A model generated the notes under the pieces. The model was given only the letters and a program-made list of their open reading frames with translations. It did not search any database and had not been told where the DNA came from. Source: a virus. Taken from it: 37,807 nucleotides of DNA. The stretch spans positions 1 to 37,807 of IMG/VR virus record IMGVR_UViG_3300024264_000084; one strand, given 5' to 3'. The stretch's first letter is position 1; each line of letters starts with the position of its first letter. Position numbers and translations under genes: made by a program. Positions 1 through 37,807 of the stretch are shown piece by piece.

Positions 1-150
1 GGCAATTATAATTTCAATCAAGGACAAGGACAAGGACAAGGTCAATGGGATTATTATCAAGGACAAGGGGACTATTATCAAGGGGATTACTATCAAGGAC
101 AAGGACAAGGTCAAGGGCAAGGTAACAATGGTTACAATCCTAGCTATGGC
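1..150. repeat. Terminal repeat, left copy (circular join)
   Basis: These 150 bases reappear at 37664-37807. The only difference is one extra CAAGGA hexamer here (three tandem units before CAAGGT, against two in the right copy). This is what an assembler leaves when it reads past the join of a circular or circularly permuted molecule. The tract lies inside a coding region, and the 6-base difference keeps the reading frame. Confidence 0.9.
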
Positions 151-27687: not shown

Positions 27688-27814
27688 GATTTTCCTTTAT
27701 GTCAAACATATTGAAAGAGCAATACCATTTCTTATCGCTATCCATAAACATAGCATCACGACCACACTGATGACATACAAACTTCTCTCCGTAAACTTCT
27801 TTAGTCTTCGTCAT
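27656..27814 (-). CDS. Zinc-ribbon-like 52-aa protein, copy A
   Basis: KFVCHQCGRDAMFMDSDKKW, then YCSFN and a late GIC, give a C-x2-C ... C ... C pattern like its downstream neighbour. The start lies inside the 3' end of the DUF3310 gene (14-base overlap). Such minimal zinc ribbons are common in phage early regions and often bind nucleic acid or proteins, but no role can be assigned here. Confidence 0.7.
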   Translation of the reverse strand: MTKTKEVYGEKFVCHQCGRDAMFMDSDKKWYCSFNMFDIKENHGICKTNKNK

Positions 27815-28097
27815 GTAACTCGTCATCTATCCATTTGTCTTGATTCACTTTAGCTTCTAATACAGCTATCTCTTTCTGATGAACTGTAATCATTTGTTCA
27901 AGATACCATATTGCTTTTTTACAGTCATCTATTTTGTCAGTAAGTTTGTCTGATTTCAAACCCTCTCTGCTAATATACTTGAGAGCATTACCTTTTATGT
28001 AGCCATAGAACTCTTCCTTACTCATCTTGGCTTCCATATACTCTATTGTTTCTATCCCACCTTTTTTATAATGGTCTGGATTTATTGTGTCACTCAT
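27801..28097 (-). CDS. DUF3310 family protein
   Basis: 98 aa. NPDHYKKGGIETIEYMEAKM, then SKEEFYGYIKGNALKYISR and KAIWYLEQMI, is the unmistakable DUF3310 signature (sometimes labelled SaV-like or nucleotide-kinase-like). The domain takes up most of the protein, followed by a helical acidic tail. Function in phages is not established. AAGGAGTTGAT is a strong ribosome binding site. It is the first gene of the leftward transcript that starts opposite pqqA. Confidence 0.9.
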   Translation of the reverse strand: MSDTINPDHYKKGGIETIEYMEAKMSKEEFYGYIKGNALKYISREGLKSDKLTDKIDDCKKAIWYLEQMITVHQKEIAVLEAKVNQDKWIDDELHDED

Positions 28098-28164
28098 ATC
28101 AACTCCTTATAATCATTAGTATAAACTCATACATTGTTCAATATCTTTATCATTACTTCTAAAC

Positions 28165-28170
28165 TATAAT
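28165..28170 (+). promoter_or_regulatory. -10 box of putative pqqA promoter
   Basis: A perfect TATAAT stands 33 bases before the pqqA ATG. The -35 position (TATCTT at 17-18 bp) is poor, so transcription may need an activator or a phage-modified polymerase. The 105-base gap 28098-28202 must also hold the leftward start for the DUF3310 gene; a TTGAAC on the - strand is a weak -35 candidate. Confidence 0.45.
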
Positions 28171-28202
28171 TCAATCTCTATTAACCTACAAGGAACTTAA
28201 CT

Positions 28203-28274
28203 ATGTGGACTAAACCTCAAGCAACTGAAATGCGTTTTGGTTTTGAAGTAACAATGTATGTCATGAACAAATAA
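28203..28274 (+). CDS. pqqA: PqqA, coenzyme PQQ precursor peptide
   Basis: 23 aa, starting MWTKP and holding GFEVTMY. This is the PqqA hallmark: correct total length, W2, K4-P5, and Glu15 and Tyr19 in E-V-T-M-Y, the two side chains that radical-SAM PqqE (with PqqD) cross-links to begin PQQ synthesis. AAGGAA sits 7 bases before the ATG. It is a lone + strand gene in a leftward operon, with a TATAAT box upstream and a hairpin just after, like a self-contained accessory (moron) unit. No other pqq gene is present, so it would feed the host's PqqB-F machinery. PQQ is the cofactor of methanol and glucose dehydrogenases, so a methylotrophic host is plausible. Confidence 0.85.
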   Translation: MWTKPQATEMRFGFEVTMYVMNK

Positions 28275-28278
28275 AGAA

Positions 28279-28296
28279 AGGGGAGTCTCCTCCCCT
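28279..28296 (-). terminator. Hairpin terminator between pqqA and the secreted-protein gene
   Basis: AGGGGAG-TCTC-CTCCCCT forms a 7-bp stem with a 4-base loop. Read leftward it is followed by TTTCTTTATTTG, a fair T-tract, so it would end the transcript that finishes with the 28312-28545 gene. Read rightward it follows pqqA by 4 bases but lacks a T run. Confidence 0.7.
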
Positions 28297-28311: not shown

Positions 28312-28545
28312 TTAATAGCATATAGTGCCTTGTCCTGTTGGCTGACAAACTGTTAATTCATCACTGCCATAAACAAATGTTGGCTCATCACCTAGTTGTG
28401 TTCCTACCTCTACGTTACCTGAATTATCAATAACGAGAACAGTAGGTTCTGATGATTCAATAATAGTTAATGAACCATCATCACTGTAAACCCCATCTGC
28501 TAGAACAGGTAAACTAAACATCATTCCTAGCAATAAATATCTCAT
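28312..28545 (-). CDS. Secreted/periplasmic small protein, 77 aa
   Basis: Start chosen at MRYLLLGMMFSLPVLA-DG: a short signal peptide with a likely cleavage after VLA. A longer start at 28560 would add MFLSN and overlap the SSB-like gene. The mature part (YSDDGSLTIIESSEPTVLVI...) is acidic and beta-rich, with a cysteine pair near the end (VCQPTGQGTICY) that suits a periplasmic disulfide. An early-expressed envelope protein could serve in superinfection exclusion, but this is inference. Confidence 0.7.
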   Translation of the reverse strand: MRYLLLGMMFSLPVLADGVYSDDGSLTIIESSEPTVLVIDNSGNVEVGTQLGDEPTFVYGSDELTVCQPTGQGTICY

Positions 28546-28546
28546 G

Positions 28547-28813
28547 TTAGAAAGGAACATCTGATGCTAGTTCGTCAAAACTTTTAGGTGTTACTGTTTC
28601 TTTAGGTGCGTTACTATTTTCAGGCACATATGGTTCTTGCATTTGTCCACTCATATATGTTGTCCCTGATTTAGATTCTCTTACCCAAGCACTTAATGAC
28701 ATTTCTTTACCGCCTTCTAAAGTAATTGTCCCTGTGTAATCAGGTTGTGAATCTTTAGTTTTGTTATTTTTAAATAACGCAAACCTGTTAGTGTTATCAT
28801 ATTGTTCAGCCAT
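28547..28813 (-). CDS. Phage single-stranded DNA-binding-like protein
   Basis: 88 aa. RFALFKNNKTKDSQPDYTGT, then ITLEGGKEMSLSAWVRESKS, resembles small phage OB-fold/DUF736-like proteins placed with recombination genes. The C-terminus FDELASDVPF copies the acidic tip of bacterial SSB (D-D-I/L-P-F), through which SSB recruits partner enzymes. It lies next to YqaJ exonuclease and the annealing protein, as expected. AAGGAGAATCAAC precedes the ATG. Confidence 0.7.
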   Translation of the reverse strand: MAEQYDNTNRFALFKNNKTKDSQPDYTGTITLEGGKEMSLSAWVRESKSGTTYMSGQMQEPYVPENSNAPKETVTPKSFDELASDVPF

Positions 28814-29432
28814 GTTGATTCTCCTTTATGGTTTTAATTTTATATTCTACTTCTTGCACGAATGTGCTTACTTCTTCTTCCAAACGAGCTATCAGCTCAT
28901 TATCTCTTGGCACTCTACTAATGAATAACTTTAAGTCATCAGGAAAGTCAGGGTGGTATGACACAAAGTCGCACCATTGCTTACCTGTGCAAGCCATTTG
29001 CCATTGCATCTGGTGAATGTATCTCTTATGTATATGTCCTGTTTCTAATGTTGTGGTATGTGTTATAGATTGTGGGCATTTAATTTCTATTAACCCATCA
29101 TCACCTACCAATCCATCTGGACTAGCACCACACATATCTATGCTAGGGTGGTCTATCATACCAACATCCCTTACATCAGTGCCTACTAGCAACTCCCTAT
29201 AATTAGCATAACAAGTCTTGGCTTCATCTTCATACTCTACGCCATGCTTCATAGCATCATTCATAAACATAGGAACAACCTTACCTGTTAGTCTTTCAGT
29301 CACTAACTGCATACGATACTTTGTTTTATAAGTAGACTCTCCTGTTTTAGTCTTAATCATAATGTCATGTATCTTACTAGCAGTGACCTTACCTAGACGA
29401 GCCTTGAACCATTCATCAGAACGCTGTTCCAT
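28806..29432 (-). CDS. YqaJ-like (lambda exonuclease family) exonuclease
   Basis: 208 aa. Family motifs are QRSDEWFKARLGKVTASKI (residues 3-21), KHGVEYEDEA (62-71), and the catalytic core CGASPDGLVGDDGLIEIKCP with D106, E116 and K118; an HKRYIHQMQWQMACTGKQWC block follows. This 5'-3' exonuclease makes 3' single strands for annealing, pairing with the DUF1071 protein directly upstream. AAGGAG precedes the ATG. It overlaps the SSB-like gene by 8 bases. Confidence 0.9.
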   Translation of the reverse strand: MEQRSDEWFKARLGKVTASKIHDIMIKTKTGESTYKTKYRMQLVTERLTGKVVPMFMNDAMKHGVEYEDEAKTCYANYRELLVGTDVRDVGMIDHPSIDMCGASPDGLVGDDGLIEIKCPQSITHTTTLETGHIHKRYIHQMQWQMACTGKQWCDFVSYHPDFPDDLKLFISRVPRDNELIARLEEEVSTFVQEVEYKIKTIKENQHG

Positions 29433-29935
29433 TATTCACTCTCCTTAACTTTCTTAATAAAGGGTAAGCATAAAGCTCTATCAGCTTCGGTTAAACCATT
29501 AAAGTATTGTCTTGCTGATGCTACCCCTTGCTCTTTGTATATGTTCTCTATATGTTCTAAGACATCATGTGGGGGTAGGTCTTCCCCCTGAAAAACAAAC
29601 AAGCCCAGACCATATAACGCAATGGCTTTTGCTAAACATCTTTGCATTGCTGTATTTAATTGCATTGAATTAGGATTCTTAATGGCTTGGTTCTTAAAAT
29701 CTATGACAGGTAATTGTGCAGTCATCTCTTTATCAAATGCTTTGACTGTGCAGAACACCATCATACTGCCATCAGGTAATGTAAGTGGCTCTTTATATTC
29801 CCAACTAGCAAATTGGTCAAGCTTTAATAATTCTTCGGTGGCATGAGACCAACTTAAATAATTGAACTTCCCTTTCTTTTCTATCAGATGACTAACATCT
29901 GTTTTAGATATTTCTATAAAATTATATTTACTCAT
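29432..29935 (-). CDS. DUF1071 single-strand annealing protein (Sak3/ERF-like)
   Basis: 167 aa. GKFNYLSWSHATEELLKLDQ, MMVFCTVKAFDKEMTAQLPV and the block SMQLNTAMQRCLAKAIALYG, then LGLFVFQGEDLP, are typical of DUF1071, a Rad52-fold annealing family of phages. With the YqaJ exonuclease next door it makes a two-component recombination system (lambda Red-like). Coupled by ATGA overlap with the 52-aa gene upstream. Confidence 0.88.
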   Translation of the reverse strand: MSKYNFIEISKTDVSHLIEKKGKFNYLSWSHATEELLKLDQFASWEYKEPLTLPDGSMMVFCTVKAFDKEMTAQLPVIDFKNQAIKNPNSMQLNTAMQRCLAKAIALYGLGLFVFQGEDLPPHDVLEHIENIYKEQGVASARQYFNGLTEADRALCLPFIKKVKESE

Positions 29936-36577: not shown

Positions 36578-37807
36578 ATGGCAAATTCTTATAACCCTGC
36601 CACTGGTACTATAGGAAGTGATGGTAATTTTACCTCCTATGATAGGGGTGATTATGACCCTACTACTTATAGTGAAGCTAATGGTATTAACTTTGATAAT
36701 GATGGAATGACTCCTGATAAAGAATTTGTAAATCCATATCTAGGAGGACCAGAACTAATAGAATTAGCTCCTCATTTATCTTCTATTCATAGAGCTCCCG
36801 TTTACACAAATGAATGGGGAGGTATGGATGATTTTTCCTATTTTACTACAACAGATACATCAGCTCCTCTAGGAGGGACTTATAGTCTTTTAAGTAATAC
36901 GGGTGCGAATGCGGATGCTCCTATTACTTACGACTTTCTCAACCACATGCCAGACACTTGGGATAGAACGGCAGGTCTGAGTGCAGCAGGAGACTATATA
37001 GGAGGGAGAGGACCTTTCGGATTAGACGCTTCAGACGCAAGATATATGGAAGATTACCGAAACACGTTAAATATGGTAGCAGACCAAACTGCAAGTCGTG
37101 CCTTCCAAAGAAAGTATAATGATGATATGGCGAAAAGGTTAGGGAATTATGAATATGGAACAGCATATGCCCTAGACAGCAGTTCACCTAACTATGGACA
37201 AGACCCAATACCTTTGCTAGGTGAGTGGGTTCATAGAGACCCTACTAACACTAGTTACGCAGATAGAAACACACCGAGAGCAGTAATAGAATGGGATGAA
37301 GGAATGGGACCAGATTACGAATATTCAGAACAAAATTATTCAGGATATGATGGGAATCGTTTTACTACAACAGACGAAAATGGTAGTCTTATCCTTAACG
37401 ATTATGCAAATGGTGGAGTACCCGCTGAAAGAGCAGGGACAGATTTTAATTCAGGCAACAGATTTAAGAAAATTACTACGATACCCTATGTTCCCGATAG
37501 AATAAACCCAGCAGTCCATCCAGAGTATATTAATCGTCATGGCGTAGCAACCAAATGGGAAAGTGGTTACGACCCTAATGATACTATTAATGCTAATCGG
37601 AATACTGATGCTGATGGTAAAAGCAATGAGTATAATGATAACTGGTATCAAGGTGATGGTGATGGCAATTATAATTTCAATCAAGGACAAGGACAAGGTC
37701 AATGGGATTATTATCAAGGACAAGGGGACTATTATCAAGGGGATTACTATCAAGGACAAGGACAAGGTCAAGGGCAAGGTAACAATGGTTACAATCCTAG
37801 CTATGGC
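36578..37807 (+). CDS. Q/G/Y-rich low-complexity protein, N-terminal part (continues at 1)
   Basis: Starts MANSYNPATGTIGSDGNFTS and stays open to the window edge; across the circular join it continues at base 1 and ends at 378, about 487 aa in all. Residues 1-340 are Asp/Asn/Gly/Tyr-rich with motifs such as RGDYDPTTYSE and YTNEWGGMDDF. From about residue 360 it becomes repeats of QG, DYYQG and QGQGQGQ, a prion-like composition. No domain is recognised. The ribosome binding site is weak (GCGGGATAAAAA). Between the terminase genes it could be a packaging or head protein, but that is inferred only from position. Confidence 0.8.
   Translation, partial: MANSYNPATGTIGSDGNFTSYDRGDYDPTTYSEANGINFDNDGMTPDKEFVNPYLGGPELIELAPHLSSIHRAPVYTNEWGGMDDFSYFTTTDTSAPLGGTYSLLSNTGANADAPITYDFLNHMPDTWDRTAGLSAAGDYIGGRGPFGLDASDARYMEDYRNTLNMVADQTASRAFQRKYNDDMAKRLGNYEYGTAYALDSSSPNYGQDPIPLLGEWVHRDPTNTSYADRNTPRAVIEWDEGMGPDYEYSEQNYSGYDGNRFTTTDENGSLILNDYANGGVPAERAGTDFNSGNRFKKITTIPYVPDRINPAVHPEYINRHGVATKWESGYDPNDTINANRNTDADGKSNEYNDNWYQGDGDGNYNFNQGQGQGQWDYYQGQGDYYQGDYYQGQGQGQGQGNNGYNPSYG
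37664..37807. repeat. Terminal repeat, right copy
   Basis: Repeats bases 1-150 with one CAAGGA unit fewer (two against three). It marks the overlap of the circular molecule and lies inside the Q/G/Y-rich gene. Confidence 0.9.

Follow-up and report, generated by a model that had tools for sequence, protein, structure and literature searches.

Phages of methylotrophic bacteria carry a 72-base gene, pqqA, which is most probably a working gene of the Methylophilaceae type that these phages keep as an auxiliary metabolic gene. Its product would feed PQQ synthesis by the host, likely in support of methanol oxidation by XoxF. The case rests on the identity of the encoded peptide, the selection acting on it, its clean gain or loss at one locus, and the lack of any other pqq gene in the loci examined.

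The gene and its surroundings

The window, the whole stretch of 37,807 nucleotides that was analysed, is a 37.8-kb IMG/VR virus record encoding a large terminase, an SU10-type portal, a major head protein and a DnaB-like helicase, with a YqaJ/Sak/SSB recombination module adjoining the pqqA region. The terminase, portal and major head protein place pqqA in a genuine phage genome, and the gene is also found in cultured phages. The two ends of the window (1-150 and 37664-37807) have about 150 bp in common (96%), a low-complexity Gly-Gln-rich coding repeat in which one 6-base unit differs. A single gene split by circular assembly is the probable cause, and the record may thus represent a complete genome. 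The features of the region are as follows.

27801..28097, minus strand: DUF3310/nucleotide-kinase-like small gene, divergent, upstream of pqqA (PF11753, E 5.6e-19; phrog_236)
28122..28270, plus strand: presence/absence segment of 149 bp, with the -10 box, the ribosome site and the ORF up to the stop region (missing in the relative L436)
28165..28170, plus strand: -10 promoter box TATAAT (sequence; conserved position in relatives)
28190..28195, plus strand: ribosome binding site AAGGAA, 7 bases 5' of the ATG (sequence; AAGGA kept in 32 distinct relatives)
28203..28274, plus strand: pqqA ORF, 23 codons (PF08042, TIGR02107; kept in relatives)
28279..28296, minus strand: hairpin and T-run, terminator of the opposing operon (terminator scan; kept in alleles without pqqA)
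28312..28560, minus strand: 82-aa ORF with a signal-like hydrophobic N-terminus, convergent with pqqA (no family match)
28547..28813, minus strand: single-strand DNA binding protein-like gene (phrog_18154, E 6.6e-13)
28806..29432, minus strand: YqaJ-type exonuclease/recombinase (PF09588, E 3.4e-24)
29432..29935, minus strand: Sak-type single-strand annealing protein (PF06378, E 1e-30)

Genes resembling the 82-aa ORF occur near pqqA in few relatives only.

Translation of 28203-28274 gives the peptide MWTKPQATEMRFGFEVTMYVMNK, with Glu15 and Tyr19, the residues of PqqA that become cross-linked during PQQ synthesis. The Pfam PqqA family PF08042 covers the whole peptide (43.6 bits, cut-off 21.1, E 2.7e-11) and the NCBIfam equivalog TIGR02107 matches it at 39.3 bits against a cut-off of 20 (E 3.9e-10); no family matching it was found in PHROGs. 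A chance ORF is ruled out by these scores, by the approximately 0.01 occurrences of the PqqA core pattern expected per shuffled copy of the window, and by the absence of PqqA family matches from all 14 control genomes. A sequence-only reading of this DNA had proposed a PqqA gene of 23 codons with Glu15 and Tyr19, a ribosome site AAGGAA, a TATAAT box and an orientation opposite to that of its surroundings. Translation confirms the ORF, both signals are in place, the genes on either side lie on the minus strand and both family models support the identity.

A segment present or absent as a block

The same reading had implied that the hairpin terminates pqqA, which proved wrong. The T-run lies on the minus strand, the terminator scan scores the hairpin on that strand only, and the hairpin is retained in relatives without pqqA; it therefore ends the opposing operon, and its role as the terminator of pqqA is ruled out. 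The description of the gene as a self-contained unit thus stands for the -10 box, ribosome site and ORF as a block and falls for the hairpin. In L436, whose flanks match those of the window, exactly positions 28122-28270 are absent as one piece and the hairpin is still there. Measured against the usual features of a moron, pqqA forms a discrete presence/absence block and has no terminator of its own. As for a promoter of its own, the -10 box is conserved (TAWAAT in 31 of 32 distinct relatives and TACAAT in the remaining one), and no -35 box is recognisable upstream of pqqA in the window or in these relatives, the -10 box being unscored by the sigma-70 scan.

Relatives were sampled through the neighbouring DUF3310 gene and not through pqqA itself, which gave 80 loci, 76 of them judgeable. 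Fifty-seven of the 76 carry pqqA, mostly at the same offset, and 19 do not, counts to which many near-identical contigs contribute and which are hence not independent. Two loci with regex false positives elsewhere (L454 and L455, MYWLSPF...) were counted as lacking the gene. As about a quarter of the relatives sampled have no pqqA at this site, the gene is not essential for this type of phage.

Such clean presence and absence among relatives could also be shown by a neutral passenger, a piece of host DNA that the phage happens to carry to no benefit, and a gene this short is easily swapped with host copies. A passenger would decay, yet none of the 19 loci without pqqA contains a remnant, their similarity to the gene being no higher than that of shuffled sequence. 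Decayed pseudogene copies in these relatives are thereby ruled out.

Named phages carrying pqqA

The closest named phage over the region is Methylophilales phage Venkman, isolated on the OM43 strain H5P1 (aligned over 73% of 3 kb with 76% identity; portal 86%). Its pqqA occupies the same position as that of the window, in an unannotated stretch, and in both the distance to the divergent DUF3310 gene is 106 bp. Searched by tblastn against 50,697 phage records, the peptide matched nine records of Methylophilales/Methylophilaceae phages, namely Venkman, MEP301, MEP401, MEP402, four Melnitz strains and P19250A, together with one environmental phage of unassigned host (MW202481) and two mis-filed bacterial contigs. 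In this search no SAR11 phage and no phage of any other named host was matched, even though a SAR11 phage portal is 41% identical to that of the window. Among named phage records, pqqA is thus confined to phages of methylotrophs and one environmental phage. MEP431-434 and Venkman EXVC038S are present in the taxonomy and absent from the records found, so that the statement covers the cultured methylophages returned. The Acinetobacter 'phage MD-2021a' (CAKLQF020000010.1 and CAKLQH020000055.1, both matching PqqA) was rejected as a PqqA phage; the one examined contains consecutive genes for ppk, pqqB, pqqC, pqqD and a radical SAM protein, and resembles a bacterial chromosome (pqqABCDE).

In the phage records examined, pqqA is either unannotated or hidden under an ORF of the opposite strand. 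In Melnitz (MZ577097) the gene at 76134-76208 is overlaid by the hypothetical ORF MelnitzEXVC044M_152, and in MW202481 the gene at 2119-2190 is overlaid by the hypothetical ORF UOF77531.1. A text search of papers on Venkman, MEP301, MEP401/402 and Melnitz found no mention of pqq genes. The sequence-only reading had suspected both a methylotroph host and a gene overlooked in related phages; these records bear it out on both counts.

Conservation and selection

A first scan of IMG/VR for GFEVTMY codons listed at least 120 stretches, all of which decode to complete PqqA ORFs of 23-25 residues. In a second scan the pattern was limited to codons 1-14, so that the catalytic residues were not selected for, which removes the possibility that conservation is an artefact of the search pattern. 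Each of the 120 loci it returned has exactly 23 codons and keeps Glu15 and Tyr19; Glu15, Thr17, Tyr19 and Asn22 are invariant and their codons vary silently. Across these viral loci pN/pS is 0.022 for EVTMY and 0.078 for codons 15-23 (bootstrap 0.021-0.124); at the variable positions 4, 6 and 8 of the leader it is 0.68. Between the window and Venkman, 8 of the 9 changed codons are silent. Judged from these substitution patterns, pqqA is under strong purifying selection as a peptide, with silent sites near saturation, and the invariant E-x3-Y pair fits a working PqqE substrate.

This pattern bears on three other explanations. A regulatory element, RNA or DNA, that is conserved and merely resembles pqqA might be expected to be short and to lie between operons, as the gene does, but the substitutions are mostly found where they leave the codon's meaning unchanged, and the ORF keeps its length, its start and its stop; we regard such an element as practically excluded. 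A neutral passenger is difficult to reconcile with strong selection at near-saturated silent sites and with the spread of pqqA over phages of several distinct types, among them the T4-like Melnitz, the Zobellviridae MEP401/402, the Venkman/P19250A type and MEP301; we consider it very improbable.

The third is that the peptide acts as a decoy or inhibitor which occupies PqqD/PqqE, lowers PQQ synthesis by the host and redirects host metabolism. Small phage proteins often inhibit host enzymes. PqqA binds PqqD tightly, with a Kd of about 0.4 uM (PMC10906245), and an excess of peptide could therefore compete. However, a decoy has no need of the cross-linked residues, which are invariant in all 120 copies chosen without regard to them; constraint on the peptide is strongest in its reactive segment, and viral and host peptides share one type. 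A decoy is thus hardly more credible than a passenger, and a working substrate remains the preferred reading.

Host genes and other viral pqq genes

The phage gene is a homologue of a metabolic gene of the host family: PqqA matches, between 1 and 12 per genome, occur in 149 of 150 Methylophilaceae genomes, and PqqE exceeds its cut-off in 12 of 13 host genomes. OM43 hosts have pqqBCDE and several stand-alone pqqA genes; strain LSUCC0665, for example, has a single pqqB-C-D-E cluster with no adjoining pqqA, and three separate pqqA genes. Multiple pqqA genes that differ in expression have been described in a PQQ-producing methylotroph (PMC9851590). In Methylophilales bacterium LSUCC0135, 12 PqqA matches, mostly scattered singly, stand against one PqqE over the cut-off.

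Compared with the PqqA of Methylophilaceae (TIGR02107/PF08042; e.g. the stand-alone OM43 copies of LSUCC0665), the phage peptide has the same length of 23, the same consensus MWTxPxATEMRFGFEVTMYVxNK with E15/Y19 and the same AAGGA site, and the host copies likewise lie apart from pqqBCDE. The window copy differs in being located in a phage genome, beside a recombination module and the terminator of an opposing operon, and its exact peptide was not found among the host loci examined. The phage pqqA of L499 (MWTQPQATEMRFGFEVTMYVCNK) is nearly identical in its coding part to an OM43 host copy (L312) and has an upstream region of the phage type, which suggests allele exchange between phage and host pqqA.

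PqqB, C, D and E were found in none of 156 viral loci, nor in the regions of seven named phage records or the window; for a whole genome this absence holds for the window alone, since most viral loci are fragments. The same four genes are present in an OM43 genome, and so in the cell that such a phage would infect. Host contamination of the viral contigs is ruled out, as the host genes around pqqA and pqqBCDE are absent from the viral loci, with the exception of a SoxYZ-like carrier on one 72-kb contig. On this contig (IMGVR_UViG_3300025120_009955, L055), positions 295-1617 hold a thioredoxin, pqqA (715-786) and the carrier in a row. The carrier (898-1617) belongs to the quinoprotein-dehydrogenase-associated SoxYZ-like family TIGR04557 (197 bits, cut-off 140), which also occurs near a tandem pqqA pair of OM43 hosts (L311:8425-9216, L312:4193-4951).

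Eight viral contigs (L016, L025, L030, L036, L037, L040, L091 and L128) have PqqA types unlike those of Methylophilaceae, for example MKWSKPTYQKLRLGFEVTMYFKQV in L040, and several of them also bear terminase, portal or capsid genes. Their sequences suggest that phages of other PQQ-making hosts carry pqqA as well.

Proposed role

PqqA is consumed with each PQQ made, and the other Pqq proteins are catalysts. With PqqB-E already in the cell, one 72-base gene would be the cheapest way of sustaining PQQ, and this would account for the presence of pqqA without the other pqq genes in phages. In a 1:1:1 complex, PqqA is bound by PqqD, which offers the Glu and Tyr of the peptide to PqqE (PMC10906245). 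We infer that the phage gene is expressed, that host enzymes cross-link its product, and that more PQQ results, to the benefit of the phage. Specifically, pqqA would be transcribed during infection from the promoter box of the phage; the 23-aa peptide would be taken up by host PqqD and cross-linked between Glu15 and Tyr19 by host PqqE; and the remaining host Pqq proteins would complete PQQ from this precursor. The cofactor would most likely go to the XoxF-type methanol dehydrogenase of the host, so that methanol oxidation could go on while progeny are made.

The assignment to XoxF is the step at which a different use of the same substrate has to be weighed, with PQQ serving another quinoprotein dehydrogenase or being used as such. 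Methylophilus has several PQQ dehydrogenase genes, and three of the contigs with PqqA types unlike those of Methylophilaceae (L037, L040 and L128) carry terminase or portal genes. In the OM43 genome tested, by contrast, a single gene exceeds the PQQ alcohol dehydrogenase cut-off, and OM43 oxidises methanol via XoxF, xoxF being usually its most abundant transcript (PMC5120137). The extra precursor would thus most plausibly be spent on XoxF; use outside methanol oxidation seems unlikely to us, though less so than a decoy.

A broader proposal is that pqqA nearly amounts to a signature gene of phages of PQQ-dependent methylotrophs. Distinct phage types would converge on the same 72-base gene, swap alleles with the copies of their hosts and in some cases gain a second quinoprotein gene, because the supply of a consumed peptide limits the energy derived from methanol in infection. 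We put this forward tentatively, as a possibility rather than an expectation.

Relation to known systems and significance

Cyanophage psbA (D1) and similar genes resupply the fastest-consumed component of a host energy pathway. The logic proposed for pqqA is the same, and the products differ: that of psbA is an enzyme subunit and PqqA is a cofactor precursor peptide.

Viral pqqA as such is not unprecedented. As far as the description of the Lake Baikal viral population VP_266 goes (2020; PMC7678222), this virus encodes PqqA without the rest of the pathway, together with a viral methanol dehydrogenase, and a role in methanol oxidation was proposed and methylotroph hosts were ascribed. By the same description it differs from our case in its freshwater origin, in having its own methanol dehydrogenase and in being a single case presented without selection or synteny analysis. 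A study of reservoir sediments (2026; PMC13188868) likewise lists pqqA, with pqqD and pqqE, among viral metabolic genes, from another habitat and other hosts, and reads them as related to phosphate solubilisation. Viral pqqA is therefore known in kind. What appears to be new, as far as the searchable literature shows, is that every cultured methylophage genome returned contains it and that its annotation there was missed, together with its conservation, the test for selection, the allele with an empty site and the pairing of the gene with a SoxYZ-like carrier.

As pqqA is found in every cultured methylotroph virus returned, carrying it is probably widespread among such viruses as a means of sustaining the energy metabolism of their hosts. 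In viromes, the gene could serve as a simple marker by which phages of methylotrophs are recognised from sequence, and the cultured pairs (Venkman and Melnitz on H5P1, MEP301 on HTCC2181) allow a test of whether one consumed peptide limits the energy of the infected host. Our results suggest that peptide-sized genes go missing from catalogues of auxiliary metabolic genes. If the proposed role is correct, phages of abundant coastal methylotrophs would routinely replenish the precursor of the cofactor on which marine methanol oxidation runs, by means of a gene so short that annotation can pass over it.
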